Source: a virus
IMG/VR virus record: IMGVR_UViG_3300025096_000004
Coordinates: 124,001 to 188,000 of that record
Length of the DNA stretch: 64,000 bases
Reading direction: 5' to 3' (one strand)
Of the stretch, positions 27,800-58,700 are shown one piece after another. A model generated the notes under the pieces. That model saw nothing but the letters and a program-made list of their open reading frames with translations, did no database searches and was not told the origin of the DNA. Positions within the stretch are counted from its first letter, which is position 1. Every line of letters starts with the position of its first letter. A program made the position numbers and the translations under genes.

Positions 27800-28138
27800 A
27801 TGTCAAGATATAGAAAAAGAACACTTGGATACAATATCCATCAGATGTACACTGAACACTTTAAGGCTCGAGATGTGTTCTCGATTGATCATTATGCAAC
27901 GCCGAAACTTATCTTTCCATCGGACAACCAATCAAAGCTAATATCATTTATGACTCATATATGGTCTTCTAGGGATAAATATTATCAACTGGCCCAGAGG
28001 TATTATAATGATTCTAAGCTGTGGTGGATCATAGCTCAATACAATCAAGCTCCAACCGAGCAGCATCTTGTGGAGGGTCAGGCCATTAAGATACCTTTCC
28101 CTCTTTCTGCTGTATATAGCTATATAGGACAAGAGTAA
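27800..28138 (+). CDS. Baseplate wedge protein, gp53-like with LysM-type domain
   Basis: 112 residues (T4 gp53, 196). The C-terminal half, SSRDKYYQLAQRYYNDSKLW then WIIAQYNQAP and IKIPFP, is the LysM-like fold seen in gp53 (D-x-Y-x-x-L-A-x-x-Y-Y-x-D-x-x-L-W-W). The N-terminal half carries aromatic and basic residues that could contact other wedge proteins. SD AAGGAG is present. The stop overlaps the next start (TAATG). Confidence 0.75.
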   Translation: MSRYRKRTLGYNIHQMYTEHFKARDVFSIDHYATPKLIFPSDNQSKLISFMTHIWSSRDKYYQLAQRYYNDSKLWWIIAQYNQAPTEQHLVEGQAIKIPFPLSAVYSYIGQE

Positions 28139-31100
28139 TGCCAGCCCCGACCGCATCCCAGCTTCAGGACGAAAAGTATCGCAACAAAAGATATTCCTAT
28201 GACAAGCCCTCGCTTGTATTAGAGATGATTTGGAGTAAATTGTATTGGGACTCCAATGGCAAGAATGGCACCGACTTCGCGTGGAAGAATAAATTCACAG
28301 TCCAGCGCAATGAGTTGCTTTGTTATGCCGCCGCAATCAATGCTTTCTTGGACCCCGGCGAGAACCATTTTGAAGAAGCCAATGCTGATCTTTTGCGAGA
28401 TATAAAGGATTCCAAAAGTGGTATGAACAGCACCGAACACTTTTTCACGAACCCAACTGAAGGTTATTTTCTTAAGGGCGGATATTGGCCCGGCTGGGCG
28501 AGTCAATATACAGCGAACCCCGCCTCCGCCGGAGATATTATACCTTACAATGAGTGGAAGAAAGCGCTGAGTGACTCAGACACTGCTGCTCAAACCGTCG
28601 CTCTCAATAAGTCCACAGATGGGTGGATTGACGGTGCAAATGAGATTCACTTGAAGAGCCACCATTGGGCTTGGCAAGTTCATCTCCCATGGCAGCAAGC
28701 TTTGAAGGCCAAAATCGACCAACTTATGCAACCTTGGCTCGACGAAGATAAACCGCCAGAATGGGTACTTCCCGCCGATGACTGGCGATATGCCAAAGCG
28801 CTATCAATTATTTTAGATGCAGGTATGCCATCGAGGGCAGAAAGGTCAAGCGGCTACGGTTACAAGGGTGGAATGCAATATCCACTGTTTTTATATTATC
28901 AGAGAACAGATGGAAAAGGCGGATACCAACCTTGTTGGGGTTATATTCATTGGTGTTCCGAAGTTCCGGCAGAGCCCACCAATGTTTTTGCCGACTCTCC
29001 ATGGATGTCTGGAGACTCTTGGCTAGCCAAAAAGTGGGTTCCTTTTTGGAAGGCAATCCAAAATTCTAAGATAGCTGATGATTTGAATGTTCCGTCAAGA
29101 GAAAAGTTTGTCAAGATGGTCACTAAGAAGATCAAAGAGGTTATACAAAAAATTAAACATGCAGATCATGGTAGATCTTGTGTTAACATCAACGAAATGG
29201 ATGAGACGATTGATTGGCCTCGACAAAGTGGCTTCACCGCCCCCGACTGGATCTTTGAAACCAATTCCGCATGGAACCACTTCAGCCCATTGAACGACGT
29301 GAAGAATTTAAGGGACACAATAGACTCCACAGAGGTGGTGGAACAACTCCAGAAGGCCGGCAAGCCCCCGTACTCCGCCGGGATAAACCCTTGCAACTCC
29401 TTTTGGGGAAGCCCCCACAAGGCGATGTCGTATTGGGCAAATAAAAAATCAACATTCCCCTCTCAAGGTAAAGGACCCACTTGCATCCGAGGTGCGCCAA
29501 CGGTCTGGCACTTCGATAAAGTTGAAGAGTCTGCAAAGGCTACCACTTTACAGTGGAACTGGTCAATCTACTGGGATATTTTTAAGCCCATGGCTGCTGA
29601 TTATTCCACAGTCTCTTCATCGCCGGGAAACAAGGCCTACATGTCTGGCATCTCGGAGGGCTGGTGGGACCCCGCCTCTGGCGGCTTCTTGGTTTTTAAC
29701 TTTCTGAAAGGACTCCAAGGCACAAATGTGGAAAGAGATTATAAGCTTTGGGATCTGATCCACCCCGGCGATTTCGGCGGCGACAATGACACCGATGGTT
29801 TTGACGAGTCTTGGATACCGGAAACCGACGATGTCCGGGGACGAATGTGTGTAAAGATGACGTCCGACGATGTGAAAAAAATGCTCAATGAATGGTTTGA
29901 AAAGAACCCTGATACAACTTTGTATGGATTGGACAAGGATGGAAATACCAAGGCCATTCAAAAAGGCTTTACTTATAATCTCACCCTCGCCAATGCAGTC
30001 TACCGCAAGTGGGGTGAACATTGGGAGGATAACAAAGATCAATGGAAGAACGAATTTTGGAAACCACAACCATTGGATCGTGATATAGATGATCAACGTG
30101 TGGACTTAAACGATGCAACGAATTACGGCGGTGCTGTAGATGAGGCTTATTTTCAAGGGCTGGTCGAGTTTCATAAAAACCTCGATGCATATTACCAAAA
30201 GGCACAAAATTTCAATCCTGATCCAGACATCAACCCCAATGCCGACAAGGTCCAACACCATGCCATGTCTTGGGGTTTCGCCAGAGGCTTTGGTACTTCG
30301 TATAACAATGACGCGAGATATAAACGAATAATGCAAAAAGGGGAAACATATGAAAACGCCTTGCACTCTTTTGATTGGGACGATGAAGATGAGCGGGCTG
30401 AATTTAAACAATATATAGAAGATTTATTTGTTGATCATTGTGCCCTCGCCATCGCCGCCCATTATGCAGGTCATGCTCGGATGGAAGAAGCGGAAGCATT
30501 TTTGATTCAAATTTTAAAAAAAGAAACTGAAGATCCAAAAAAGCTCTCAAAAACAGATCTTTTAGAGGCCGAAGGCGATGCCAAGAAAGATTTACTGAAT
30601 AACAATATCACCAGCGCCAGCCCAACCAAAGGTTCCGGAGCCCTTACAGACGAGGAAATTGAAAAAAGACAGAAATTTTTTAAACAATGCGCTCTTTTGT
30701 TAAATTTGGAACAGTTTGTTCAAGCCCATCGATTTAGAGTAAATGCTGCCATCGCCGACAAGACCTCCGGCATCCATAGTAACGGAAAAGGTCCGTATAA
30801 TGGAAGATTTTGGATGCTCGAAGACGGCGGCGGCGGCCAAGCCTCGTCCGTTCCAGACCAATCTTCAATGGTCAATAAGTTATTCATTAGAGAGGATTTA
30901 TATGCTTTTATGAATATTCCGCAAGCTGTTGTTGCCCTTATGACACCAAAATTGAGATTATATCAGGTATACAGCAAGGCAATTCAAATCGATGGCAAAC
31001 CCGGAGATACTTTAATCGAAACTGAGTTTGAATTTCCGCAAGAAGGTCTCGGCCTTACCGAGACCGACAATGCAGCAAACCGCATTAAACAGATGTGGTC

Positions 31101-33501
31101 AACCGAGTTTGATAAAGGCAGTGGCGCCGGCATTAAAAGTTTTTCGTGGATTTATGAAGGGACCAGTCCAGCAACGGCACGGAATGATATTTCTTGTGAT
31201 TTATCGCTCCATTTTCAATCTTTTAATGATTTTTTTAAATCGAGGGTAAACTCTATTAATGGTCGTTATTATAAGTTTGTTGATTTGGTTCTTTATCCCC
31301 AACATCGCACCAGCGACCGCCGCAGAGATTATGACCAAGGTGCAAAACAAGAATATGACCCTTCGGATTATAGAATAAGGGTGGATGTTGGTTGGAACGT
31401 TCCTCCTGAGTCACTTAGGGGAGAGATTAATCGAATTGCGAGACTAAGCCAAGTCGATTTGTGGTCGACTACAACAGACGACGCCGGCACGGTTATAGAC
31501 TATTATGATCAATTGAGATTGATTATTAATAATAGCAACAAGTCTTTTTATCTAAACATGGTTGACCACAAGATGGACATTAAAGATACTGGTGCGGTTC
31601 AAATAGACATTAACTATAGGGCGTATGTTGAGACTGCTTTAAAATCAACCCGCTTTAATGCTCTCTTAGATGAAGAAACTTATATAATGAAGCGCAATCA
31701 AAAACAGCAACTTATAAATGCTAAAAAGAAAAAGTGTACCAGACAAGACTTTATGATACTCCGAAGAGAAATAGATAGGCAAAATGAGTTAATTACAAAA
31801 AATGCACACCAATCTATCATGAAGAGACTCATTAAAAGAAATAAAATATATTTTGTTGATGTTGAAGAGACAGACAAACTAGAATTTGAACGAAGGGGGT
31901 ATTTTCCAAATAGACCTAAATATGTGAATTATGACAAAAAACAAGCGCAGTCCGGCATGGCAGTGATGACGCCCGATACCCAAACGCGCCTTAAAAAACA
32001 TGCCAAGAGCAGCAATATTCGCACCTCAAGCTATCACCTTCTAAGAGACAAGTGGATAGACGAAAATGTCTCTAGAAATGTTCGCGTGAATTATTTTTTC
32101 ATGGGCGATTTGATATATACAATTCTTGATGTCATTAACGGCATTCAACCAGATTTGGAAAAAACCAAAATATTGTTGGGAAGTTTTGAGTATATTGATT
32201 TTGACGGAAGATCAAGGCTTGCAAATATAGCAGATATCCCCGTGTCCTGCGATTATTTCTTCGAATGGTATACTCAACATGTTGTGAAAACGAAGAGACA
32301 ATCATTTCCCGTTGCTTATTTCATTCGTACCTTGTGTAATCATTTTATAACTGAGTTGTTGTCTGATAAGTGTAGAAACAAGGCCCAAGTTTTGAAAATA
32401 TCTTTCAAAACAGGTACTTTTATGTCTGCACCACACAAAGATAGAGATCCATTTGAACACATGGTAACCACATCAGATACAACCGCAAAGAGATCTAATG
32501 GATTGGAAAGGCTTTTGGTTCAGGTGGGAAAATATTATGATGGCACCTACACCTCGGCCACCCTCCCCTTGACTCATTATGACCGATCACCGGGAGCGAA
32601 TATTACTCAAAACTTTTTTCATTATATGATGGTGTACCCAGTTGTTTCTCCTGCGATCAACCACCCCGGCACGGGTGATGAACTGCAAGACAGGAAGCGC
32701 GGCGTCCACCACATACATATCGGCGCACGGACAGGTGTTATCAAAAAAGTTAGTTTCGACAGAACAGATATCCAGTACATCCGAGAGTCTCGTTTTTTAA
32801 ATCAGGGTGAAGATGGTCTGCTTCAACTTGGGGCGGTCTATAAGGCGACGATTGATATGGTGGGGAACACTCTTTGGTTCCCGGGAATGGAGCTATACGT
32901 CAATCCTCTTGGCGTAGGTGGATTGGAGCTTGGTTTTCCAAATGATTCTTCTTCCGCTGCTAACAAGCTGGGCCTTGGAGGTTATCACATTATAACAAGA
33001 ATTAAATCTACAATAGCCCCGGGTGTGTTCAACACACAGGTGGAGGCTCAATTTCACTATTCCGGCGATAAATCTGTTGACAAGCAGCGCCTCGGATTTA
33101 TAAAAGCCGATGATAAGACATCAATTGTTGATGTCAAGGGCGAAATATCTGACCAATGTGAGAGTATTTTGACCCAATTACAAAAAAGCACAGCCCATCT
33201 TGGCGGCAAGCTGTCTCGTATTGATGAAGAGACTAGTTATTCAACCGGAAAAGACCTCGAAGAGCAAAATATGGATAAAATGACAGAGAATGCAAACAAA
33301 ACTATTCCGAATGTTCCAAGTAAATATGGCGTGGCCCCTAAAATCGAGTCCAAAGCGCCACGGACTCCGGATAACAAGCGCAATAACCCCGGCGGCTCCG
33401 GCGGCCATCGAAAGCCCGATACGCCTGCCAACCCGATTCGACCAAACCCGTCTCCCCCGGTCAGCAATGTCACCTATGGGCCAAATACAAAGAAGCGCTG
33501 A
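28138..33501 (+). CDS. Giant baseplate/tail structural protein
   Basis: 1,787 residues, the largest gene here. Residues 1-560 are unusually rich in Trp, Asp and Asn. Residues about 860-1,030 are helical and charged. The last 300 residues include GLLQLGAVYKATIDMVGNTL, WFPGMELYVNPLGVGG, and LGLGGYHIITRIKSTIAPG, a pattern I associate with large virion proteins near the baseplate hub of marine phages. The extreme C terminus is Pro/Gly/Asn-rich and disordered (NPGGSGGHRKPDTPANPIRP). No catalytic motif is recognised. Its coupling to the gp53-like gene suggests a baseplate role. Confidence 0.7.
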   Translation: MPAPTASQLQDEKYRNKRYSYDKPSLVLEMIWSKLYWDSNGKNGTDFAWKNKFTVQRNELLCYAAAINAFLDPGENHFEEANADLLRDIKDSKSGMNSTEHFFTNPTEGYFLKGGYWPGWASQYTANPASAGDIIPYNEWKKALSDSDTAAQTVALNKSTDGWIDGANEIHLKSHHWAWQVHLPWQQALKAKIDQLMQPWLDEDKPPEWVLPADDWRYAKALSIILDAGMPSRAERSSGYGYKGGMQYPLFLYYQRTDGKGGYQPCWGYIHWCSEVPAEPTNVFADSPWMSGDSWLAKKWVPFWKAIQNSKIADDLNVPSREKFVKMVTKKIKEVIQKIKHADHGRSCVNINEMDETIDWPRQSGFTAPDWIFETNSAWNHFSPLNDVKNLRDTIDSTEVVEQLQKAGKPPYSAGINPCNSFWGSPHKAMSYWANKKSTFPSQGKGPTCIRGAPTVWHFDKVEESAKATTLQWNWSIYWDIFKPMAADYSTVSSSPGNKAYMSGISEGWWDPASGGFLVFNFLKGLQGTNVERDYKLWDLIHPGDFGGDNDTDGFDESWIPETDDVRGRMCVKMTSDDVKKMLNEWFEKNPDTTLYGLDKDGNTKAIQKGFTYNLTLANAVYRKWGEHWEDNKDQWKNEFWKPQPLDRDIDDQRVDLNDATNYGGAVDEAYFQGLVEFHKNLDAYYQKAQNFNPDPDINPNADKVQHHAMSWGFARGFGTSYNNDARYKRIMQKGETYENALHSFDWDDEDERAEFKQYIEDLFVDHCALAIAAHYAGHARMEEAEAFLIQILKKETEDPKKLSKTDLLEAEGDAKKDLLNNNITSASPTKGSGALTDEEIEKRQKFFKQCALLLNLEQFVQAHRFRVNAAIADKTSGIHSNGKGPYNGRFWMLEDGGGGQASSVPDQSSMVNKLFIREDLYAFMNIPQAVVALMTPKLRLYQVYSKAIQIDGKPGDTLIETEFEFPQEGLGLTETDNAANRIKQMWSTEFDKGSGAGIKSFSWIYEGTSPATARNDISCDLSLHFQSFNDFFKSRVNSINGRYYKFVDLVLYPQHRTSDRRRDYDQGAKQEYDPSDYRIRVDVGWNVPPESLRGEINRIARLSQVDLWSTTTDDAGTVIDYYDQLRLIINNSNKSFYLNMVDHKMDIKDTGAVQIDINYRAYVETALKSTRFNALLDEETYIMKRNQKQQLINAKKKKCTRQDFMILRREIDRQNELITKNAHQSIMKRLIKRNKIYFVDVEETDKLEFERRGYFPNRPKYVNYDKKQAQSGMAVMTPDTQTRLKKHAKSSNIRTSSYHLLRDKWIDENVSRNVRVNYFFMGDLIYTILDVINGIQPDLEKTKILLGSFEYIDFDGRSRLANIADIPVSCDYFFEWYTQHVVKTKRQSFPVAYFIRTLCNHFITELLSDKCRNKAQVLKISFKTGTFMSAPHKDRDPFEHMVTTSDTTAKRSNGLERLLVQVGKYYDGTYTSATLPLTHYDRSPGANITQNFFHYMMVYPVVSPAINHPGTGDELQDRKRGVHHIHIGARTGVIKKVSFDRTDIQYIRESRFLNQGEDGLLQLGAVYKATIDMVGNTLWFPGMELYVNPLGVGGLELGFPNDSSSAANKLGLGGYHIITRIKSTIAPGVFNTQVEAQFHYSGDKSVDKQRLGFIKADDKTSIVDVKGEISDQCESILTQLQKSTAHLGGKLSRIDEETSYSTGKDLEEQNMDKMTENANKTIPNVPSKYGVAPKIESKAPRTPDNKRNNPGGSGGHRKPDTPANPIRPNPSPPVSNVTYGPNTKKR

Positions 33502-34892: not shown

Positions 34893-36083
34893 ATGGCATT
34901 TCAAGTTATTGATGAAAAGGATGGATGTTATGGAATTTACACAAACGGAACCTTCGTATATGATCGGGTTCCTAATGCTTTGCGCGGGACTTGGGATTGG
35001 TCTCATCATCTCGTTGGTCACGATATTGACTATGCACATATCTGGAGCGGCGGTAAAGCGCTTGCTAAGGCTTGCCCCGAACACTTACAAAACCGACTCG
35101 AGTCACACGAAAAAAAAATCAAAGCCCAAATCAAATCACATTTGAATGCGAAGATAGATATATCGGAGATATGTTTGTTTGACATGGTGCCGGAACAACA
35201 ATTGAAGGCATATCTTGAAACTAAGAGCTTGATATGTCAATATATTTTTGAAGAGATCGAAAAACCAAAGAATTATTCTTTTCTGTCTCAGACGCATGAG
35301 ACATGCAGAGAAATAGCAAAACAGAATCTTAAAATAGATTGGGAATTGGCCAGACATCTCGCCGTCAAAGACCCCAAAGCTCGTTCTATAGTGGAACGCT
35401 TTGATCCTGCGAGAACATTCATTAATTACAATGTGTTTGGGTCAATAACGGGTCGTTTGGCAACTCATCCTGATTCGTTTCCCATCATGAACCTTAAGGC
35501 AGAACACAAGGGGATTCTGCTTCCGAAGAACAATTGGTTCGTTGAGTTTGATTATAATGGTGCAGAGATACGAACATTGCTGTCATTGACCAAAAAGGAG
35601 CAACCTCATGAGGATATTCACGAGTTTCACATGAAGAACATATATCGCGATCTTACAACGAGAACTAAAGCTAAAGAGCGTTTCTTTGCTTGGCTCTACA
35701 ATTCCAATTCGGAGGACTATTTGACTGAACGTTACTATGACCGCCAGTCTATCCTAACCTCCTACTACCGGGGTGGGTGCGTGTATACACCCTTCGGGCG
35801 TGAGATCGAGACAGATGACTTTCATGCTCTCAATTATCTGCTTCAAAGTTCATCATCCGACAACTGCATGACTCAGGTTAACAAGATCCATCGATTTTTG
35901 AGAGACAAGCGATCAAATGTTGCTTTCGCGATTCACGACTCGGTTGTAATTGACCTTGCTCATGGCGATCGTAACCTTTTGCCTCAAATTAGAGAGATTT
36001 TTGAAGACACAACGCTTGGAAAGTTCAAAGTTGGGGTTAAAATAGGCCAAAACATGGGCGAATTAAAGGAGTTCTCATGGTAG
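34893..36083 (+). CDS. Short DNA polymerase, family A (Pol I-like)
   Basis: 396 residues, much shorter than Klenow (about 600). It retains a template-handling segment (FINYNVFGSITGRLATHPDS), motif A around D220 (EFDYNGAEIRTLLSL), a motif B-like TRTKAKERFFAWLYNS, VYTPFGREI, and motif C I-H348-D349-S-V. No 3'-5' proofreading or 5' nuclease domain is present; a separate 5' exonuclease is encoded at 42176. The N-terminal 150 residues are not recognised. It may fill gaps or process lagging strands, while DnaE at 51942 acts as replicase. Its last bases overlap the next start. Confidence 0.85.
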   Translation: MAFQVIDEKDGCYGIYTNGTFVYDRVPNALRGTWDWSHHLVGHDIDYAHIWSGGKALAKACPEHLQNRLESHEKKIKAQIKSHLNAKIDISEICLFDMVPEQQLKAYLETKSLICQYIFEEIEKPKNYSFLSQTHETCREIAKQNLKIDWELARHLAVKDPKARSIVERFDPARTFINYNVFGSITGRLATHPDSFPIMNLKAEHKGILLPKNNWFVEFDYNGAEIRTLLSLTKKEQPHEDIHEFHMKNIYRDLTTRTKAKERFFAWLYNSNSEDYLTERYYDRQSILTSYYRGGCVYTPFGREIETDDFHALNYLLQSSSSDNCMTQVNKIHRFLRDKRSNVAFAIHDSVVIDLAHGDRNLLPQIREIFEDTTLGKFKVGVKIGQNMGELKEFSW

Positions 36084-36886
36084 TGATAGGATTGGGCTCC
36101 GCTGGTGCCAACATAGCAAGAGAGTTCGAGAAGTACTCTCAATATAGGGTTGTTACGCTAGAAGTGGACAAGGAAATCCCTCGACAGTCAACCGTTGAAG
36201 AGTACGAGGCGAACACTCCGAGGCTTAAAAGAAAAATTAAGAAAATCGAAGGTGAAGTTTGGTTTGTTGTAGCCGGAGCCGCAAAAGTTGCAGCCTCAAC
36301 ATTGGCCGTTCTTGAACAGATTAAAGACCACAAGATAAACGTTGTTCATATATCTTCAGATCCAATGTTTATGTCGGCTCAAGCTAGATTAAGAGAAAAA
36401 GTCATAATTGGTGTGTTGCAGCAATATGCCCGCTGCGGCCTACTTAATGCAATTTACTTGGTTTCCAATAAGCATGTTCTTGATCTCCTCGATGGCATCC
36501 CATTTCATGAGGCGAACGCAAAGATCAACGAAACAGTGGCATCTATGATTCATTATTTCAATATTTATCAAAACACTGATCCACTTATGGGCTTCAAAAT
36601 GGAACCAAAAGAAATTTCTCGTATTAGAACCTTTGCAATGGTCGATGTGGAAAAAAGTGAAGAAAAGTTGTTTTTTCCCCTTGACAATATCACCGAAACA
36701 TGTTATATTTATAATATCAAAAAGACGGAAAAGTCTAATGATAAAAAGATCCAAAAGATCAAAACTATGATGGAGGTAAAAGAAACATCATGCAAAACAT
36801 CATTCGCAATGTATACGACAGAGTACGATCAAAGCTTCTGTCACGCGATACAAATGACTCATTACATACAACAGGAGGAACAATGA
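36077..36886 (+). CDS. Divergent tubulin/FtsZ-like protein (candidate)
   Basis: 269 residues. The N terminus VVIGLGSAGANIAREF is a glycine-rich loop like the FtsZ start, followed by a strand ending in D31. VWFVVAGAAKVAAS (62-74) sits where FtsZ has its GGGTGTG loop but lacks those glycines. Residues 95-170 (LREK...YLVSNKHVLDLLDGI, PFHEANAKINETVASMI) resemble the FtsZ segment with IPNDKLL, AF-x-x-AN and AVQGI. The T7-loop catalytic aspartates are not visible. Polymerisation and GTP use are therefore uncertain. It overlaps the polymerase gene by seven bases and has an AAAGGA SD. A Rossmann-fold nucleotide-binding protein is the alternative. Confidence 0.6.
   Translation: MVVIGLGSAGANIAREFEKYSQYRVVTLEVDKEIPRQSTVEEYEANTPRLKRKIKKIEGEVWFVVAGAAKVAASTLAVLEQIKDHKINVVHISSDPMFMSAQARLREKVIIGVLQQYARCGLLNAIYLVSNKHVLDLLDGIPFHEANAKINETVASMIHYFNIYQNTDPLMGFKMEPKEISRIRTFAMVDVEKSEEKLFFPLDNITETCYIYNIKKTEKSNDKKIQKIKTMMEVKETSCKTSFAMYTTEYDQSFCHAIQMTHYIQQEEQ
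36681..36709 (+). promoter_or_regulatory. Promoter inside the tubulin-like gene
   Basis: TTGACA, 17-base spacer, TGT-TATATT, fully inside the coding sequence. Likely gives extra transcription of the small gene at 36883 and possibly beyond. Confidence 0.7.
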
Positions 36887-37131
36887 ATCAATACAATACA
36901 TACACCGGAACCTTTACCAAGCGCGACGGCCAATCTCGAACCATGACTTTTGTCAAAGGAACTGATGTTCCACAACATATTCGTGGAACTGGTAAAACCC
37001 CCCGGCTTTCTAAAGGTGAAGAGATCGTTTATGACGTAAAAGCCAATGGATGGCGAGTATTTAACCACAACACTATCCAAGGACAAATTACTGAAAGTAA
37101 TGTTAAATTTTCATTTGACAAAATCTCATAA
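36883..37131 (+). CDS. Small SH3/Sm-like phage protein
   Basis: 82 residues from ATG 36883, directly behind AGGAGG and overlapping the previous stop (ATGA); the frame is open further upstream to 36790 but that start is far from any SD. YTGTFTKRDGQSRTMTFVKG, then a KGEEIVYDVKANGWRVFN stretch, suggests a small beta-barrel like the phage WYL-associated/SH3 families. Function unknown. A further promoter lies over its 3' end. Confidence 0.7.
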   Translation: MNQYNTYTGTFTKRDGQSRTMTFVKGTDVPQHIRGTGKTPRLSKGEEIVYDVKANGWRVFNHNTIQGQITESNVKFSFDKIS

Positions 37132-37207: not shown

Positions 37208-38524
37208 ATGCTTAAACACAATGGAACAATCTTTAATGCACATAGATATGCAACAACTGTAGACCGGTCCGTATCCGGGGTACATGTAATTCAAGAATAT
37301 ACGGACAACTCGATCCAATACGGATCTAAAGAAGTTATGGTTATTGTTGATTCACATAAGAATCAAATCATAACGATGGACATTGGAACAGGGATTGCAA
37401 AAGATATTTTTTGCACCAATTATCATACTTTCCATAACGAACCTAAAGATACTAGTGGGATTTCAATGGCTGGTTTGGGGTCTAAGCTGTTTTATAAGCT
37501 TTCGGACACAAGAGTAACAATAACTAGGCACAATGGAACCTACTATTACTCTACATGGGACTTCTCATCTAAAGAGAGTTTTGCAAAACCAGTTATTGAC
37601 TATTTAGACACAGACAATATACCTGAAGAACTGCGAGATCATGAGGATATAATCAAAAGGTTTGTCAGCATCGACCATGACGGCACGACTACGATTTTGC
37701 CAAACATTAAAACTTGGGGCAAATATGGCACCTCATCATTAAGATTTTTTAACGCCTTGAGGGAGTATTATGCCAACCGATATGGCCACTTTCTTCATAC
37801 AAACAAATTGACAATGGCAGTATCATATGTAGACAACAAGGATAAAAGAGAGTGGTTCAAGATATCTTCCGCAAACATATTCAATTCAACTTCGTACAAC
37901 TCGGCTTTTAACAAGGCAGGAAATATTGAGGTTAGAAGCTGGATTGTAGAGCCGAACAAAGAACAGGCGAAGCTTACCAAGTGCGGTATTAATATTTATC
38001 GCAACGACGTTAAGGCTGTTACAAATCATTTTCTTAAGATCGGTCAACGCAAAAAGAAGGGGCAATCAATTAGTGTTGTTAAGGCGGCCCCTCATGATCA
38101 CAAAAGCATCCGCCAAATCGTATTTTTTAACTCTGAGTCTGATGACGAGTTTGTCATTAACCACATTAAAACTCAAATTGAGTTTGGAGACGAGATTGAG
38201 CAACTTTGTGCATCTGAATTTACAAAAATCGTTGAACAATATGAAAAACAACAACAAGAGGCGCAACAGGAGAAAGTCGCTGAGGCAATCGAAGAGGATA
38301 CTTCCTTAGTATTTACAATCGAAGAGCTTGCAGCCAAGACGGCATGGAAAATGGCCAATGGCCAGATATCATTTAATAAATCATCGAAGGTCTATAGTAC
38401 CATTGAATCCCTCCCTACGGATGGAATAGATTTAATCAAGAGTCTTTTGGCCTCTATCCCATCACGCCAAGTAAACCAATTGGGTAAAACATTGGAAAAT
38501 AACATTGGAGGCGACAATGTATAG
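37208..38524 (+). CDS. GHKL-family ATPase (HSP90/MORC-like)
   Basis: 438 residues. The ATP-binding Bergerat motifs are visible: N-box E30-Y-T-D-N34, G1 box MDIGTGIAKD (57-66), and G2 box SGISMAGLGSKLF (83-95). There is no transducer, cleavage Tyr or GyrB-type Toprim region, so this is not a type II topoisomerase. After residue 200 no known domain is recognised. Residues about 340-375 are Gln/Glu-rich and helical. Its start lies behind TTGGAGG. Its stop is overlapped by the next gene, suggesting a functional pair. The role may be DNA handling or chaperone-like; unknown. Confidence 0.8.
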   Translation: MLKHNGTIFNAHRYATTVDRSVSGVHVIQEYTDNSIQYGSKEVMVIVDSHKNQIITMDIGTGIAKDIFCTNYHTFHNEPKDTSGISMAGLGSKLFYKLSDTRVTITRHNGTYYYSTWDFSSKESFAKPVIDYLDTDNIPEELRDHEDIIKRFVSIDHDGTTTILPNIKTWGKYGTSSLRFFNALREYYANRYGHFLHTNKLTMAVSYVDNKDKREWFKISSANIFNSTSYNSAFNKAGNIEVRSWIVEPNKEQAKLTKCGINIYRNDVKAVTNHFLKIGQRKKKGQSISVVKAAPHDHKSIRQIVFFNSESDDEFVINHIKTQIEFGDEIEQLCASEFTKIVEQYEKQQQEAQQEKVAEAIEEDTSLVFTIEELAAKTAWKMANGQISFNKSSKVYSTIESLPTDGIDLIKSLLASIPSRQVNQLGKTLENNIGGDNV

Positions 38525-39101: not shown

Positions 39102-39866
39102 ATGGCTTTAAATTTAGATGCAATGCGAGCGAAGCTCGAACTTTCCCGCAACGGCGGAAGAAAACAAGATAATACAAAATGGCGTCCGCAAGAGGGCGAC
39201 CAAACCATTCGTATTTTGCCCACTTCTGATGGAGATCCTTTCAAGGAATTTCATTTTCATTATAACGTGGGACGAAACCCCGGTATTCTTTGTGAAAAGC
39301 GAACTCACGGCGGTGAATGTCCAATCTGTGATTTCGCATCACAACTGTGGCGAGATGGTGTGGATAACAATGATGACCGGGCAAAACGCGAAGCAAAAAA
39401 GCTTTTCGCTCGGAAACGTTATTTTTCGCCAATTTTGGTTCGTGGACAAGAATCACAAGGAGTAAAGGTTTGGTCTTATGGCAAGACTGCTTACGAAATG
39501 CTTCTTGGGTATGTTCTTGACCCGGATTATGGGGATATTACTGATCCCGAAACTGGAACAGATATTGTTCTGAATTATTCAGTCCCCGGCACCCCCGGAT
39601 CTTTTCCAAAAACTCAATTAAAACCAAGGCGTAGACCATCGGCTCTTTGTGATGATATGGTGGCTGACTGCTCTCAATTGCTTGACAGCATTCCAGATAT
39701 CGAATCTCTTTTTGAAAGAAAAGCCAAAACAGAGGTTCAAGCCATTCTGGATGAGTATCTGTCAACTGATACTTCCTCCGAATCAACCTCTACCGAGACG
39801 CAGAAATACAACACTACGTCATCGTCAAAAGTTGATAAAGCATTCCAAGAATTAATGGGCGCTTAG
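39102..39866 (+). CDS. gp32: Single-stranded DNA-binding protein, gp32-like
   Basis: 254 residues. It has a zinc-binding pattern H51-x12-C64-x8-C73-x2-C76, within one residue of the T4 gp32 spacing H64-C77-C87-C90. The context GGECPICDFASQLW is typical of the family. An N-terminal basic stretch (residues about 10-30) could mediate cooperativity. The C-terminal tail is Ser/Thr-rich and less acidic than in T4. It should coat ssDNA during replication and recombination with the RecA, helicase and polymerases nearby. The strong promoter and long leader suggest high, possibly leader-controlled, expression. Confidence 0.9.
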   Translation: MALNLDAMRAKLELSRNGGRKQDNTKWRPQEGDQTIRILPTSDGDPFKEFHFHYNVGRNPGILCEKRTHGGECPICDFASQLWRDGVDNNDDRAKREAKKLFARKRYFSPILVRGQESQGVKVWSYGKTAYEMLLGYVLDPDYGDITDPETGTDIVLNYSVPGTPGSFPKTQLKPRRRPSALCDDMVADCSQLLDSIPDIESLFERKAKTEVQAILDEYLSTDTSSESTSTETQKYNTTSSSKVDKAFQELMGA

Positions 39867-40984: not shown

Positions 40985-42103
40985 TTGGGAAAGGTAGTAC
41001 AAATGAAGAAAAAACCGGGAAAAATGGATCTTGAAGCAATCAAAAAGCGAATCAATAAAACGACTGGCATGAATGTTGCTCACGATCTAACGAAAGATAA
41101 TCCCACTGAAGTTAAACAGTGGATTCCGACTGGCTCCCGTTGGTTGGATTCGATTATCTGTAGGGGCAAGATGGCTGGCATCCCCGTTGGTAAAATAACA
41201 GAAATAGCTGGTCTGCCAGCTACAGGCAAGTCTTTTATGGCTGCGCAGGTAGCAGGTAATGCACAAAAAATGGATATGCAAGTAGTCTATTTTGATTCTG
41301 AATCTTCACTCGATCCAGCTTTTTTGAGAAGAGCCGGCTGTGAATTGAGCACACTAATGTATGTTCAGGCCGTTTCGGTTGAGAAAGTTTTGGAAACAAT
41401 TGAGGATTTGATGTCAGCAAGCTCAGAAACACAATGGTTGTTTATCTGGGATTCCATTGCAAATACAGCATGCGAAACAGATATTGAAGGCGACTTCAAT
41501 CCCCTGTCAAGTATGGCAGTCAAGGCACGGACCATGGGTAAAGCTTTTCGAAAGTTAACTATTCCTTTGGCCAATCAACAATCAACGCTAATTTTAATTA
41601 ATCAGTTGAAAACCAATATTACGAGAAGTATCGCAGAGGCTATGACCACCCCCTTTGTAGCCCCCGGCGGCAAAGCAATTGAATATAATTGCTCTCTCAG
41701 GGTTTGGCTTACTAAACGGAAAGCTAAAAATGCATTCACTACGGATAATAGTGGATTTCGAATTGGCTCTGAAGTTAAAGTTAAATTAGAGAAATCTCGT
41801 TTTGGTACTGAAGGCCGCAGAGCAACTTTTCAAATTCTCTGGGGCTCTGACGTCGGAATTCAAGATGAAGAAAGCTGGTTTACAGCATTGAAATTGTCTG
41901 GAACCGATAAGTTAAAACAGGCCGGCGGTTGGTATACTCTGATTGACAAAAAGGGCTATGAACATAAGTTCCAAGTCTCTAAGTGGGTGGAAAAGCTAAA
42001 AGACAAGAATTTCCGCCAATTGGTATATGATTTGATGGATGAGGTTATCATTCATCGCTTTGACAAAACGGCAAATGAGATAGATTTGGGCGACGAAGAA
42101 TAA
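40985..42103 (+). CDS. recA: RecA-family recombinase
   Basis: 372 residues with a TTG start directly after the thioredoxin stop, behind AGAGGTG. Walker A is G76-LPATGK-S83. YFDSESSLDPAF corresponds to the catalytic Glu region (RecA DAEHALDP). LILINQLKTNI precedes the L2 DNA-binding loop, ended by VAPGGKAIEYNCSLRVWL. It looks nearer to RecA than to T4 UvsX in these motifs. It should act in recombination-dependent replication and repair with the gp32-like protein. The N-terminal oligomerisation helix is present (residues about 10-25). Confidence 0.93.
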   Translation: MGKVVQMKKKPGKMDLEAIKKRINKTTGMNVAHDLTKDNPTEVKQWIPTGSRWLDSIICRGKMAGIPVGKITEIAGLPATGKSFMAAQVAGNAQKMDMQVVYFDSESSLDPAFLRRAGCELSTLMYVQAVSVEKVLETIEDLMSASSETQWLFIWDSIANTACETDIEGDFNPLSSMAVKARTMGKAFRKLTIPLANQQSTLILINQLKTNITRSIAEAMTTPFVAPGGKAIEYNCSLRVWLTKRKAKNAFTTDNSGFRIGSEVKVKLEKSRFGTEGRRATFQILWGSDVGIQDEESWFTALKLSGTDKLKQAGGWYTLIDKKGYEHKFQVSKWVEKLKDKNFRQLVYDLMDEVIIHRFDKTANEIDLGDEE

Positions 42104-42144: not shown

Positions 42145-42175
42145 ATAGCATGGAGGTTTTTTTATGGAGGAAAAG

Positions 42176-43162
42176 ATGAAAAAGGTTATTATAATTGATG
42201 CACTTAATCTGTTTATTAGAAATTATGTTGTGAATCCCACAATGGACAGAAAGGGCATTCCCATCGGCGGCTGCATTGGATTTCTTAAATCAATGCAGAA
42301 AATTACAAGAATACTCCGACCTGACGAGATTATAGTTTGTTGGGACGGCATCGGTGGATCTCAAAGAAAGAAAGCAAAAAATAAAGACTATAAGGCCGGA
42401 AGAAAGCCTCTTCGGTTTAACAGACGAATGATTGAGCTTGACCCAGCCTCTCAGGAGCAAAATAGAATTTATCAACAAATTCGCCTTTATGAATATCTTA
42501 ACGAAATGCCAGTGATACAAGTATCGTTGGATGGAATAGAGGCAGATGACTTAATAGGACACATAGTACACCAAGATTACTATTCTGGTTGGGAAAAGGT
42601 CATTGTTTCAAGTGATAAAGATTTTTTTCAATTGGCTTCTGATGAAACAAGTGTATATCGACCCATTCAAGATACATTTGTTACGATTGAATCGCTTTTG
42701 GACAAGGACAGGATACATCCCAACAATTATGCACTTGCGAGGGCGTTGGTGGGCGACAAATCCGATAACTTGCCGGGAGTTCCGAGAGTTGGACTGAAAA
42801 CGGTGGCAAAGTTGTTCAACTTTCTGTTGGAGTCAAAAAAATACACTGTATTCGATATTATTGAAAATTGCCGGAAACAGGATAAAATCACCGCCGCCCA
42901 TAGAAATATTATAGACAACAATCAGTTGGTTTTTGAAAATTATGATATGATGCAGTTATATGATCCAATAATATCTTACACGAACAAACAATCGATTGAC
43001 TATCAAATTCAAAATTTTGAATTTGATTTTGCAAAAATTAATGTTACAAAGATGCTTTTTGAAGATGGCCAAGGTTCTTTAAATTTCAATGAGTTATACA
43101 CATATTTCAGAAGCTTTTCTGCATTAAACATTCATGAAAAAAAAATAAAAAATAGTATTTGA
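42176..43162 (+). CDS. 5'-3' exonuclease (Pol I N-terminal / FEN-like)
   Basis: 328 residues from ATG 42176, with GGAGG five bases upstream; ATG 42164 (MEEK extension) is an alternative with its own GGAGG. Family signs: IIDALNLFIRNYV, IVCWDGIGGSQRKKAKNKDY for the helical arch, GIEADDLIGHIVHQ, VSSDKDFFQLA, then LVGDKSDNLPGVPRVGLKTV, the helix-hairpin-helix. These are the acidic metal sites and HhH of FEN/Pol I exonucleases. It removes RNA primers or flaps, complementing the Pol I-like polymerase that lacks this domain. Confidence 0.92.
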   Translation: MKKVIIIDALNLFIRNYVVNPTMDRKGIPIGGCIGFLKSMQKITRILRPDEIIVCWDGIGGSQRKKAKNKDYKAGRKPLRFNRRMIELDPASQEQNRIYQQIRLYEYLNEMPVIQVSLDGIEADDLIGHIVHQDYYSGWEKVIVSSDKDFFQLASDETSVYRPIQDTFVTIESLLDKDRIHPNNYALARALVGDKSDNLPGVPRVGLKTVAKLFNFLLESKKYTVFDIIENCRKQDKITAAHRNIIDNNQLVFENYDMMQLYDPIISYTNKQSIDYQIQNFEFDFAKINVTKMLFEDGQGSLNFNELYTYFRSFSALNIHEKKIKNSI

Positions 43163-43186: not shown

Positions 43187-43212
43187 AATTATATTAGGTT
43201 TTGGAGGAAACT

Positions 43213-44568
43213 ATGGCTAATCAAACGGAGACTCTTTCCCGTTTCGGGAAATCGTTTCAAGAAAAGTTGTGTCAGCTTATCTTGGAAGATAGACCATTCT
43301 GTGATCAAATCTCAGAGGTCTTAAATATAAATTTTTTAGAACTCAAATATCTTCAGGTGTTTGTAGAGACAATATTCAACTATCGAGATCGATACAAGAC
43401 TCATCCCAGTTATGAGTTGATGGCTACAATGCTTAAATCAGGTTTGTTGCAAGAAAATGGAGCCGTTAAAAAGCAGGTCCGAGATTATTATTCTAGAATA
43501 ATGAGCGGTGCTGTCGTCGGTGCAGATTATATTAAAGAACAGGCCATAGATTTTTGCAAAAAACAAGTTCTAAAAGAAGCTATGATCAAATCTGTTGGGC
43601 TTTTAAAATCATCTTCTTATGATGAAATACAGAAGATCATCAATGACGCATTAAGGCTCGGTGTGGAAAACAACTTCGGCCACGATTATTTGAAAGATTT
43701 TGAACAGCGGTTTATCCTGAAGCCAAGACACCCTGTGAGCACCGGATGGGAACGCATAGATGATGTTAGTAAAGGCGGTCTTGGAAGAAGAGAGCTTGGA
43801 GTTGTTATTGCTCCCACTGGCGCCGGGAAATCGATGGTACTGTGCCATTTGGGCTCCCACGCTGTTAAGGATGGCAAAACAGTTATCCATTATACTCTTG
43901 AGTTGGCAGATACGGTAGTTGGACAAAGATATGACTCTTGTATAAGTGGTGTCCCACTTGGCGATTTGTTGAGAAATAAAGAAAAAGTTTTTGATGTTGT
44001 CCAAGACCTCGAAGGCCAACTAATTATTAAGGAATATCCAACAAAGTCGGCATCGACTTCCACAATTAAGAGTCATCTTGAAAAATTAAGGAAACGCTCA
44101 ATTGAGCCTGATATGATTATTGTCGATTATGCCGATTTATTAAAACCAATCAAATCAAGTAGCGAAAAGAGGCACGAATTGGAAAACATCTATGAAGAGC
44201 TTAGAGCAATAGCTCAGGTTTATAATTGTCCCGTGTGGACAGCCTCGCAGACCAATAGGTCTGGCCTGAATGCAGAGGTTATCACGATGGAATCTATATC
44301 GGAAGCCTTTAATAAGTGCTTTGTTGCCGATTTTATCTTTTCTTTGTCTCGAACAATTCAAGATAAACAGGCGAATAAGGGCAGAGTTTTTGTAGCCAAA
44401 AACAGAAATGGACCAGATGGCTTGGTATTTCCAACCTTTATTGATTGGTCAAGCATATGTATGAAGGTATTGGAGAATACCGGAGAAGACACAGACGATG
44501 CTGTTAAGGAAACCACGGCATCCGCGTTACAGTATTTGAAAACAAAATACGAACAACACAAGAAATAG
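43213..44568 (+). CDS. dnaB: Replicative DNA helicase, DnaB/gp41-like
   Basis: 451 residues from ATG 43213 (GGAGG five bases upstream). Residues 1-170 form a helical N-terminal domain. The RecA-like core starts at about 178 with STGWERIDDVSKGGLGRREL, Walker A A200-PTGAGK-S207, Walker B IIVDYADLLKP, and WTASQTNRSG for the sensor region, as in DnaB/gp41. It unwinds DNA at the fork. No primase is seen in the window, so priming may come from a gene elsewhere or from the host. Confidence 0.93.
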   Translation: MANQTETLSRFGKSFQEKLCQLILEDRPFCDQISEVLNINFLELKYLQVFVETIFNYRDRYKTHPSYELMATMLKSGLLQENGAVKKQVRDYYSRIMSGAVVGADYIKEQAIDFCKKQVLKEAMIKSVGLLKSSSYDEIQKIINDALRLGVENNFGHDYLKDFEQRFILKPRHPVSTGWERIDDVSKGGLGRRELGVVIAPTGAGKSMVLCHLGSHAVKDGKTVIHYTLELADTVVGQRYDSCISGVPLGDLLRNKEKVFDVVQDLEGQLIIKEYPTKSASTSTIKSHLEKLRKRSIEPDMIIVDYADLLKPIKSSSEKRHELENIYEELRAIAQVYNCPVWTASQTNRSGLNAEVITMESISEAFNKCFVADFIFSLSRTIQDKQANKGRVFVAKNRNGPDGLVFPTFIDWSSICMKVLENTGEDTDDAVKETTASALQYLKTKYEQHKK

Positions 44569-44577
44569 GAGAACATT

Positions 44578-46551
44578 GTGGTGAAACTAGCAGACATTAG
44601 TGTGAGAAAGTTTAAACTATCGGATCAATTTATTAACCAATATAGAGAAAAGACCGTTCCGTGGGGACCAGTCGGATATATTACATTTAAAAGAACCTAT
44701 GCAAGGCGTTTGAGTGAGTTTGATCCCAACGCTACAGGCACAGAAGAGTGGTATCAAACATGTCGCAGAGTAATTGAGGGCATGTTTGATATTCAAAAGC
44801 GCCATGTTGTGGCCACAGGTCTCGAATGGAATGATGCCAAAGCCCAAAGAACAGCAAAAGAAGCTTATGATAGGCTGTTTACTCTCAAGTGGACACCTCC
44901 CGGCAGAGGATTGTGGATGATGGGTACAAAGTTTATTTATGAGCGCACAGGCGCAGGACTTTTTAATTGTGCATTCCGCTCTACCAAAGATCTTGGCTCC
45001 AAAGGCGGCTATTTATTCTCTTGGATGATGGATGCTTTAATGGTCGGAATTGGTGTTGGGTTTGATACTCTTGCCGCCGGTACTTTCACGGTCAAAGAGC
45101 CTCAGTGGACCAACGACATTCACATGATTGAGGACTCTCGCGAGGGCTGGGTCAACTCTGTCCACCTGATATTAGATGGCTATTTCTTGGGCAAGAAAGT
45201 GCCCCAGTTCGATTACTCCTTGATCCGTGGTATCGGAGAGCCCATCAAGGGCTTTGGTGGCACCGCAAGCGGAGCAGGTCCCTTAATTGAGCTACACAAG
45301 AATCTTAAAGAGCTATATGTGAACAAGGCCGGAGAAGAGATAACATCGGTTGATATTGTCGACACAGAAAATCTTATCGGACGGTGCGTCGTCGCAGGCA
45401 ATGTCCGCCGTTCCGCCGCACTCGCCCTCGGCCAAGCCGAGGATAAAAGTTATTTAACAATGAAGAATGACCAAGAAAAACTCTATCACCATCGATGGGG
45501 CTCCAACAACTCATTTGAGGCTAAAGTTGGAATGGACTATACTTGGCATGCCGAACAAAGTCAACAAAATGGTGAGCCGGGCTACATTTGGCTTGACAAT
45601 GCAAGATACTATGGTAGGATGAAGGATGGCATTAGATATGATGATACAAAGGTGATGGGATTTAATCCCTGTGTCGAGCAACAACTTGAAGACGGAGAAT
45701 TATGTTGTCTTGTTGAGACATTCCCCGCAAAGCACGACACCTATGAAGACTATCTTAGAACCTTGAAGATCGCTTATCTGTATGGCAAGACAGTTACCCT
45801 GATTAATACCCATTGGCCTGAGACTAATGCCATCATGTTAAAAAATAGAAGAATCGGCCTATCTCAATCTGGTGTGGTCCAAGCGTTTAATAAGTTTGGC
45901 AGACGACAAGTCTATGAGTGGTGTGACAATGCTTACGATGAAGTTCAGGCAATGGACATTGAATATTCAGATTGGCTTTGTATACCCCGTTCTGTTCGTA
46001 TGACATCGATAAAGCCTTCTGGAACTGTATCTTTGTTAAATGGTTCAACTCCCGGCATACATTTTCCCGAGGATGAATACTATATTCGACGGATCCGCTT
46101 TGCCACAACATCCGATTTACTTCCAGCACTTAAGTCCGCTGGCTATAAGATAGAAGAAGATGCTTATTCTCCGAATACAATGTGTGTTGAGTTTCCTGTT
46201 TACGAGCCTCATTTCACAAAAGGAAAGCGCGATGTTTCTATGTGGGAGCAATTGGAGATAGCAGCCCAGTATCAGCACTTTTGGGCCGACAATAGTGTGT
46301 CCATTACAGTCACGTTCAAACCATCCGAAGCGCCTCAGTTGAAAGATGCACTTGAGATGTACGAAACCCGCCTCAAGGCTGTTTCTTTTTTGAAATATGA
46401 AGAAACTGGCTACAAACAGGCTCCTTATGAGCCAATTACAAAAAAACAATATGAAGAGATGATCTCGAAGGTTGTCCCAGTTCAGAGAATAAACACTGAA
46501 CAAGCCGGAGCCGGGTCTAAATTTTGTACAAACGATACATGCACAATTTAA
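44578..46551 (+). CDS. nrdJ: Class II (B12-dependent) ribonucleotide reductase, RTPR-type
   Basis: 657 residues; GTG at 44578 or 44581 behind AGGAGA. The layout follows monomeric adenosylcobalamin-dependent ribonucleoside-triphosphate reductases: PPGRGLWMMGT, FNCAFRST with the first redox Cys, VGIGVGFDT, GFNPCVEQQLEDGELCC with the radical Cys and second redox Cys, SIKPSGTVSLLNGSTPGIH, and a C-terminal FCTNDTC pair. It makes dNTPs without oxygen or a small subunit but needs cobalamin, presumably from the host. Thioredoxin (40664) is the likely reductant; ThyX and dUTPase are in the same module. Confidence 0.93.
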   Translation: MVKLADISVRKFKLSDQFINQYREKTVPWGPVGYITFKRTYARRLSEFDPNATGTEEWYQTCRRVIEGMFDIQKRHVVATGLEWNDAKAQRTAKEAYDRLFTLKWTPPGRGLWMMGTKFIYERTGAGLFNCAFRSTKDLGSKGGYLFSWMMDALMVGIGVGFDTLAAGTFTVKEPQWTNDIHMIEDSREGWVNSVHLILDGYFLGKKVPQFDYSLIRGIGEPIKGFGGTASGAGPLIELHKNLKELYVNKAGEEITSVDIVDTENLIGRCVVAGNVRRSAALALGQAEDKSYLTMKNDQEKLYHHRWGSNNSFEAKVGMDYTWHAEQSQQNGEPGYIWLDNARYYGRMKDGIRYDDTKVMGFNPCVEQQLEDGELCCLVETFPAKHDTYEDYLRTLKIAYLYGKTVTLINTHWPETNAIMLKNRRIGLSQSGVVQAFNKFGRRQVYEWCDNAYDEVQAMDIEYSDWLCIPRSVRMTSIKPSGTVSLLNGSTPGIHFPEDEYYIRRIRFATTSDLLPALKSAGYKIEEDAYSPNTMCVEFPVYEPHFTKGKRDVSMWEQLEIAAQYQHFWADNSVSITVTFKPSEAPQLKDALEMYETRLKAVSFLKYEETGYKQAPYEPITKKQYEEMISKVVPVQRINTEQAGAGSKFCTNDTCTI

Positions 46552-47444: not shown

Positions 47445-48155
47445 GTGAAAAGTATATTTTTATATGATGACAGCATCGGCAAGGTAGACCTTGTACAGCA
47501 TATGGGTTCTGACTTGACAGTTGTCAATAGCGCAAGGGTGTCATTTGGAATAGAAAAAGAAGAACTGGATACCCGAGACAAAAAGTTGATCAATTATCTT
47601 ATAAAACACAGACACACTTCAACTTTGGAGCACTGTAGTGTAACTTTTAAATTTACAGTTCCGCTATTTGTTCGATCACAGCACCACAGACATAGAACGT
47701 GGAGTTATAATGAAATATCCAGACGCTATACTTCTAAAGATTTACAATTTTATACTCCCGACTCGTTCAGAACCCAGCATGAATCAAATCGACAAGCATC
47801 TAATGAGGCTGAACTCATCGACCCGGTAATTATCCCAGATTTATATGATATTGGTTATGGAGTAACAGCTTCGAATTTAATAAATCGAGCCACTAAGGAG
47901 AGCGTTGGATTGTTTAACATGCTTTTAAAATCCGGCGTGTGTCGTGAGCAGGCAAGAATGGTTTTGCCTCAAAACTTATATACAGAATATTATGGAACGG
48001 TCAATCTTAATAATTTACTTAAGTTCGTCGACTTGCGAACCCACGAAGGAGCCCAATGGGAAATTAGAAGAGTTGCAGAGGCTTGTTTACAGTTTGCTAA
48101 TGACCTTTTCCCAATAACGGTTAAGTCCTATAGGGAACTTAGAGGTGGGAAATAG
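47445..48155 (+). CDS. thyX: Flavin-dependent thymidylate synthase ThyX
   Basis: 236 residues with a GTG start behind GAGGTG. The ThyX signature RHRTWSYNEISRRY is present, preceded by HTSTLEHCSVTFKFTVPLFV. Downstream GVCREQARMVLPQNLYTEYY and FVDLRTHEGAQWEIRRVA match the FAD/dUMP-binding parts. It converts dUMP to dTMP using methylene-THF and reduced flavin, giving dTTP independently of ThyA. It fits with dUTPase and class II RNR in the same module. Confidence 0.95.
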   Translation: MKSIFLYDDSIGKVDLVQHMGSDLTVVNSARVSFGIEKEELDTRDKKLINYLIKHRHTSTLEHCSVTFKFTVPLFVRSQHHRHRTWSYNEISRRYTSKDLQFYTPDSFRTQHESNRQASNEAELIDPVIIPDLYDIGYGVTASNLINRATKESVGLFNMLLKSGVCREQARMVLPQNLYTEYYGTVNLNNLLKFVDLRTHEGAQWEIRRVAEACLQFANDLFPITVKSYRELRGGK

Positions 48156-57514: not shown

Positions 57515-57699
57515 TTGAAGACGCACCAAAACACAACCCACAAAAGAAAGTGTGGGAGAATGCAGGTATTTTTGATACCTATCACGAGGCCAGAGCAAAG
57601 GCTGAATTGATGAAGTCGGAGACCAAGATCCGTCGTTGTGGTCCCGCTGGCACAAAATTTAAAATTAAACGAGTTGTGAAGATGCTGGGGGATGGATGA
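57511..57699 (+). CDS. Small basic protein
   Basis: 62 residues. PQKKVWENAGIFDTYHEARA then KAELMKSETKIRRCGPAGTK suggests a small alpha/beta fold of the kind that follows a ribosomal-protein or translation-factor pattern, but nothing specific is recognised. SD TTGGAGG. Coupled to its neighbours by ATGA at both ends. Confidence 0.6.
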   Translation: MIEDAPKHNPQKKVWENAGIFDTYHEARAKAELMKSETKIRRCGPAGTKFKIKRVVKMLGDG

Positions 57700-58700
57700 G
57701 ATCAACAGTTACGTTTGATGATGTTCTTATAGTCCCTCAGTATTCGGAGATAGTTAGTAGAAAATCAATTGATATTGCCAGCATCCTATCTCCCAATGTG
57801 GTTTTAGATTTGCCTATCTTTGGAGCGCCAATGGATACTGTTACGGATCCCTTTATGCTAAACACAATGAACAGCCACGGCGCTTGTGGGATAATGCATA
57901 GATATAACTCAATCTATGAGCAAGTATCATCGATAAAGAGAGTTACTGGAACAAAAGCAGCAGCCATTGGTGTGACTGGGGATTATCTAAATAGGGCAAT
58001 CAAGCTGGTTGAGTCTGGCGTCGAGATCATTTGTGTCGATGTGGCTCATGGTCACCATGCACTTGTCCGTCATGCGATAAAGACACTGAGAAACACATTG
58101 GGGTATGATTTACACATCATGGCTGGCAACGTGGCAACCCTTGAAGCCTTTAATGATTTGTCTGACTGGGGCGCCAATTCTATTAGAGTTGGAATCGGCG
58201 GAGGGTCAATATGTTCTACCCGAATCCAAACTGGCCATGGCATCCCCACTTTGCAGTCTATTATTGACTGTTCTTTATCAGATAGACCAGCGAAATTAAT
58301 AGCCGACGGTGGCCTTAAAAGTTCTGGGGACATGGTAAAGGCCATCGCCGCCGGCGCTGATTTTGTTATGGCTGGCTCCTTGTTGGCTGGAACGCTTGAG
58401 TCTCCCGGAGAGACAACCTTGATCAATGGATCAACTTATAAAAAGTACCGTGGCATGGCTTCCATTGAAGCCCAAATCGATTGGAGGGGGCACTCTTCTT
58501 CTGAAGAAGGTGTTTCACATATGATGCCTTATAAGGGGTCTGTAAAAAAGATTTTAAAAGAGCTAGAAGCTGGAATTAGAAGTGGCTTTTCATATAGCGG
58601 CGCACTAAATATTGTAGACTTTCAAGCGAAAGCTAAATTTGTAAAACAAAGCTCGGCTGGCTTATATGAAAGCCGAACCCACATCAAGGATCGCTTTTAA
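57696..58700 (+). CDS. IMP dehydrogenase / GMP reductase family enzyme
   Basis: 334 residues without CBS domains. TFDDVLIVPQYS starts the TIM barrel; GAPMDTVTDPFM follows; the catalytic-loop Cys is C173 in GIGGGSICSTRIQTGHGIPT; then IADGGLKSSGDMVKAIAAGA. Size is nearer GMP reductase, while the C-terminal AGLYESR echoes IMPDH; the sequence alone does not decide. Either reaction adjusts the guanine nucleotide pool. The second Gly in GIGGGS replaces the usual Pro. ATGA coupling to the previous gene. Confidence 0.88.
   Translation: MRSTVTFDDVLIVPQYSEIVSRKSIDIASILSPNVVLDLPIFGAPMDTVTDPFMLNTMNSHGACGIMHRYNSIYEQVSSIKRVTGTKAAAIGVTGDYLNRAIKLVESGVEIICVDVAHGHHALVRHAIKTLRNTLGYDLHIMAGNVATLEAFNDLSDWGANSIRVGIGGGSICSTRIQTGHGIPTLQSIIDCSLSDRPAKLIADGGLKSSGDMVKAIAAGADFVMAGSLLAGTLESPGETTLINGSTYKKYRGMASIEAQIDWRGHSSSEEGVSHMMPYKGSVKKILKELEAGIRSGFSYSGALNIVDFQAKAKFVKQSSAGLYESRTHIKDRF

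Follow-up and report, generated by a model that had tools for sequence, protein, structure and literature searches.

The 64,000-nucleotide window analyzed here (bases 124001–188000 of a 191,495-base virus record) encodes a protein that is predicted to have the two-domain fold of tubulin and FtsZ but has lost most of the canonical GTPase motifs. Fold and motif loss, taken together, are held with high confidence. The gene (36077–36886, + strand) is an open reading frame of 269 amino acids with an ATG start. Its ATG overlaps the stop codon of the polymerase gene upstream (ATGGTAG, 36077–36083), and its TGA overlaps the ATG of the next gene (ATGA, 36883–36886), which is preceded by AGGAGGA. We give slightly better than an even chance to the reading that this pseudo-tubulin has been repurposed as a non-catalytic accessory or scaffold in phage replication or repair.

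The AlphaFold2 model of the window protein, built with 44 family members as input, has a pLDDT of 92.1 and a pTM of 0.91. The model of a relative with 37% identity (locus L055) has values of 94.8 and 0.92. A Foldseek search of the PDB with the window model gave 350 matches at E ≤ 0.001 (best E 3.9e-12), and the best 50 of these are all FtsZ, TubZ or CetZ, with query-normalized TM scores of 0.65–0.73. The best 50 listed for the L055 model likewise belong to FtsZ, TubZ or CetZ (best E 2.0e-12). Over the PDB matches listed for both models, TM scores of 0.63–0.73 and alignments of approximately 300–357 columns indicate that both domains are aligned. Sequence identity in the structural alignment of the window model with FtsZ is 8–12%. 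The best viral matches, in BFVD, are proteins of uncultured phages annotated as FtsZ-like (A0A6J5RW92, 452 residues, TMq 0.75; A0A8S5UFG9, 387 residues, TMq 0.65), which are likened to the window protein by fold match and differ from it in length; weaker matches follow, among them a phage tubulin. An earlier note, made from the sequence alone, had called the protein a divergent tubulin/FtsZ-like one and proposed structure prediction with a fold search as the check. With FtsZ, TubZ and CetZ on top for two high-confidence models, that call is borne out. Membership in the tubulin/FtsZ superfamily by predicted fold, with two domains and the core helix H7, is well supported.

Sequence comparison agrees with this fold weakly, yet above shuffled controls. 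The family profile aligned to PhuZ by hhalign scores 37.3 (E 2e-4, N-terminal part only), whereas 100 column shuffles reach 20.9 at most; for FtsZ the score is 25.1, against a shuffled maximum of 23.1. The Tubulin HMM matches 9 of 44 members (best E 0.0048) and the ftsZ HMM 10 of 44 (best E 0.0041), the window protein being matched by neither. None of the 44 members exceeds the cut-off of the curated family models (PF00091, TIGR00065). PF00091 finds nothing in the window phage's own genome, and no tubulin match in ten related records, immuto among them, so the curated model misses this family. Single-sequence searches with the window protein gave no significant homologue in Pfam, PHROGs, PDB sequences or GenBank phages. 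The fold assignment fills an annotation gap, since neither Pfam, NCBIfam, PHROGs nor the PDB sequence search names this protein.

The profile searches also raised a Rossmann-type dinucleotide-binding protein (NAD/FAD), unrelated to tubulin. TrkA_N of Pfam weakly matches 31 of 44 members (best E 6e-4), other Rossmann families match near the N-terminus, and the PDB sequence search gave weak matches to KtrA. These matches span about the first third of the protein, and for the window protein none lies above the curated cut-off. The earlier note had named a Rossmann dehydrogenase-like fold as the result that would speak against it; no such structure is among the best 50 PDB matches of either model. 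As these hold FtsZ, TubZ and CetZ alone, we rejected the Rossmann/TrkA_N identity, which is extremely improbable.

Conservation of the nucleotide-binding elements was counted over 95 non-redundant family members. Residue equivalences come from a local hhalign alignment and predicted secondary structure (a global hhalign against FtsZ gave no sensible alignment). The equivalent of the T1 loop is GLGSAGAN (residues 5–12; 36089–36112, + strand), and its glycines are retained: G5 and G7 in 95/95 members, G10 in 94/95. The equivalent of the T4 loop, GAAKVAAST (residues 67–75; 36275–36301, + strand), has lost GGGTGTG. No member (0/95) matches GGG[TS]G[STA]G, and a gap in the local alignment leaves the loop two residues shorter than that of FtsZ. 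Strand S2 and the strand before T4 are about 31 residues apart in the window model, compared to roughly 50 residues in FtsZ, which shows that the T2–T3 region has been cut down.

The residues on the guanine side of the pocket are kept. N131 (36467–36469, + strand), conserved in 94/95 members, aligns with N165 of E. coli FtsZ, the T6 asparagine that contacts guanine (PMC8456036). Core helix H7 corresponds to residues 143–165 (36503–36571, + strand; helical over this whole span by DSSP). Within it, N151 (91/95) aligns with N186 of E. coli FtsZ, so that both the T6 asparagine and the polar residue of H7 are present, and residue 147, a tyrosine in 82/95 members, aligns with F182. The T7/H8 equivalent is KMEPKEISR (residues 174–182; 36596–36622, + strand). 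It has no NxDxxD motif, and an acid pattern of the T7 type (N.[DE]..[DE]) is found in this region in only 4/95 members. Helix H8 is absent from the DSSP assignments of both models; in each of them the T7 region runs directly into a strand (residues 183–190 in the window model). Each FtsZ active site is completed by T7 aspartates from the adjacent subunit (PMC8936486).

Several of these features had been read correctly by eye: the GLGSAGAN loop, the sequence AGAAKVAAS (residues 66–74) in place of the GTP loop, the FtsZ-like region around residues 120–170 (VSNKHVLDLLDGI, residues 129–141, and PFHEANAKINETVASMI, residues 142–158), the missing T7 aspartates, and a length below that of known relatives (269 residues, where the translations used here give PhuZ 315 and E. 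coli FtsZ 383). The suggestion of a degenerate, probably non-GTPase member extends to the whole family, with GGGTG[ST]G in 0/95. A canonical GTPase cycle is unlikely because the T4 signature, the T2–T3 region, the T7 acids and H8 are lost or reduced, and the window protein is accordingly unlikely, judged from its sequence and model, to hydrolyze GTP or to run dynamic filaments. The strong conservation of the guanine-side asparagines may nevertheless mean that nucleotide binding, and even polymerization, persist in a non-canonical form.

Two further sets of invariant residues lie outside the FtsZ motifs. One is QQYARCG (QEYARSG in the family) at the end of helix H5 (residues 115–121; 36419–36439, + strand), an invariant specific to this family: Q115 and R119 are conserved in 95/95 members, S120 in 91/95 and G121 in 94/95. 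The other is the pair R182/T185 (36620–36631). They probably mark a different conserved function and may form a putative partner-binding site.

The same residues could instead form a subunit interface if the protein were a filament-forming phage tubulin that positions or segregates DNA like PhuZ or TubZ, albeit one whose nucleotide pocket and interface are unusual. The fold shared with FtsZ and TubZ and the invariant residues in the pocket elements (G5, G7, G67, N131 and N151) are consistent with such a role, and phages do use tubulins for DNA positioning (PMC4244570, PMC3678025). However, the T4 signature is missing in 95/95 members, the T7 acids are unconserved and H8 is not predicted; it is with the T7 loop that an FtsZ subunit completes its neighbor's active site (PMC8936486). 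No TubR-like DNA-binding partner was recognized in the conserved neighborhood either. We consider a filament of this kind unlikely.

The genomic neighborhood points to replication. Immediately upstream is a family-A DNA polymerase-like protein of 396 residues (34893–36083, + strand; DNA_pol_A E 3e-10, phrog_17 E 1e-17). Motif A (DYNGAEIR) and a motif B of the form R-x3-K-x3-F-x3-Y are retained, but motif C reads HDS, not HDE. A full DnaE-type polymerase III alpha is also encoded by the window phage (51942–55370). Downstream is a small SH3-like gene (36883–37131, + strand) with a weak WYL_2 match (E 6e-4, below the Pfam cut-off); both neighbors are those named in the earlier note. The replication module continues on the + strand with a gp32-type single-strand DNA binding protein (SSB; 39102–39866; gp32 E 7e-18, phrog_1192 E 9e-27), a UvsX-like recombinase (40985–42103; phrog_97 E 2.5e-57), a FEN-like 5′-3′ exonuclease (42164–43162; its profile matches the annotated exonuclease of immuto, E 4.5e-105) and a DnaB-like replicative helicase (43201–44568; its profile matches immuto's annotated DnaB, E 3e-161). 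Within the module there is also a GHKL ATPase-like protein (37208–38524; HATPase_c_3 E 3e-5, just under the Pfam cut-off). Nucleotide metabolism genes are found at 44578–46551, 47445–48155 and 57696–58700 (a B12-dependent ribonucleotide reductase by Pfam, and ThyX-like and IMPDH-like genes by eye).

This arrangement is conserved. The earlier note had asked whether other phages carry the gene beside a family-A polymerase. Among 112 distinct loci, 106 have enough upstream sequence to judge, and in 104 of these a polymerase-like gene lies immediately upstream on the same strand. In the remaining two, our reading of the table is that the gene order is unchanged and the locus reversed. The pooled loci include some that were fetched with the polymerase; those fetched with the tubulin-like protein behave alike, and where the latter show no polymerase, less than 2 kb of upstream sequence is available. 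With the polymerase as bait, 58 loci were obtained, and a family member adjoins the polymerase wherever the downstream sequence suffices. In the bait loci without a member (L028, L062, L064, L067 and L068), the sequence ends less than about 250 bases past the polymerase or inside it. The start of the gene overlaps the polymerase stop or lies within 10 nt of it in 61/91 cases, with gaps of up to 2.6 kb in the rest. The downstream neighbor is the SH3-like gene at 68 loci and SSB at 35; SSB, UvsX, FEN and DnaB come further downstream in the conserved module.

A profile scan of IMG/VR confirmed at least 588 related coding stretches. Direct searches found five relatives, either close (75–81% identity) or 37% identical, all with the genomic position kept. 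Homologues at these distances that keep their position, together with the at least 588 related stretches, show that the open reading frame is not a chance one. Each of the eleven related records that matched holds exactly one copy. At locus L040 the member is split into two ORFs (1765–2229 and 2257–2676), possibly a pseudogene or a sequence error. tblastn with three different family members gave no match in 50,697 GenBank phage records, a collection that includes 141 PhuZ records, and no family member was found in the bacterial and archaeal genomes scanned. Literature searches returned no description of this family. Its carriers form a large group of uncultured and mostly marine phages, and it is abundant in environmental phage contigs.

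The best capsid matches of the window phage include immuto and Rhodothermus phage RM378, which would place it in or near the Far-T4 group (PMC4360716); Bacteroidetes have been suggested as hosts of that group (PMC7198788). In five sequenced relatives chosen by capsid protein, the family member is found in 0/5. A related polymerase in a similar module is present in two of these phages (Flavobacterium phage immuto and Microcystis phage Mel-JY01), and the family profile matches none of the small ORFs at the corresponding position. Since these two phages replicate with a similar polymerase and without the protein, it is not essential to such replication modules in general.

In the reading that we favor, a protein of the two-domain tubulin/FtsZ fold has kept the base-recognition side of its nucleotide pocket and given up the phosphate-binding T4 signature, much of T2–T3 and the catalytic T7–H8 element. 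From its context, the protein would assist the phage replication/repair machinery without catalytic activity, as an accessory subunit or a scaffold. This role is suggested by the operon shared with the reduced family-A polymerase, SSB, UvsX, FEN and DnaB, and by the usual gene overlap. Genomic context is a matter of linked inheritance, not of physical contact, and we put a role in replication on this basis at about one half. A bound guanine nucleotide might, speculatively, act as a structural cofactor or sensor.

That last idea can be taken further, to a regulatory role in which the protein senses a guanine nucleotide (GTP, GDP or dGTP) and tunes the neighboring polymerase. Retention of the base-recognition residues alongside loss of the GTPase motifs, the coupling to the polymerase gene and the nucleotide metabolism genes in the same genome would all fit; however, the phosphate contacts of T2–T4 are reduced, which makes nucleotide binding itself putative, and we regard a sensor as distinctly improbable. 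The position of the gene bears on another proposal, in which the protein imitates FtsZ and poisons division of the host cell during infection, either capping host FtsZ or assembling together with it. Among solved structures FtsZ is closest in fold, a non-catalytic homologue is plausible as a poison, and phage inhibitors of FtsZ exist (lambda Kil, T5 Hdi and P1 Icd; PMC3961180, PMC10714956, PMC11897509). Those inhibitors are small unrelated proteins, though, the low identity in the structural alignment leaves little for interface mimicry, and the gene is fixed in a replication operon by the polymerase rather than among early host-takeover genes. An FtsZ poison is improbable.

The pseudo-tubulin can be compared with several known systems. 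It shares with FtsZ the N-terminal nucleotide domain, core helix H7 and C-terminal domain, as well as aligned and conserved T1 glycines and T6 and H7 asparagines. It differs in the lost and shorter T4 loop, the shortened T2–T3 region, the lost T7 acids and H8, and the absence of a C-terminal tail; moreover, FtsZ is the bacterial cell division GTPase, whereas the pseudo-tubulin is encoded in a phage replication operon. With the spindle tubulins (PhuZ and the TubZ of phiKZ) it has in common a phage-encoded tubulin/FtsZ fold and an N-terminal profile match above shuffles. Unlike these active, filament-forming GTPases, it is shorter, is without their T4 and T7 motifs, and is encoded in far-T4-like phages next to a polymerase. 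The top fold matches listed include TubZ from Bacillus cereus and B. thuringiensis, but the TubZRC partition system of plasmids and phages has a TubR partner, for which no counterpart was recognized here, and TubZ has a C-terminal extension and GTPase motifs that the pseudo-tubulin is without. Chloroplast ARC3, an FtsZ-like regulator of FtsZ assembly, is a precedent for a regulatory, non-filament FtsZ homologue. The FtsZ-like domain of ARC3 is degenerate. ARC3 is a multi-domain plant protein, however, and is likened to the pseudo-tubulin by role.

Bacterial and phage tubulin homologues are known as GTP-driven filaments. If our reading is correct, this would be a tubulin/FtsZ homologue with a job in DNA synthesis instead of filament mechanics. 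We propose only tentatively, and with clear doubt, that a protein of the tubulin fold has been recruited into a phage replisome, where it would be a stable subunit with no catalytic function, widespread in uncultured far-T4-like phages. A family that keeps the fold, loses the GTPase signature and stays tied to a DNA polymerase gene would widen the known uses of the tubulin fold, and as a candidate for a new replication accessory factor the protein can be tested directly.

In a close relative (locus L002), a structural ORF (27–2438) has a Hint/intein-like stretch at its C-terminal end as well as a match to AXH; Pfam finds neither in the window homologue (28138–33501).
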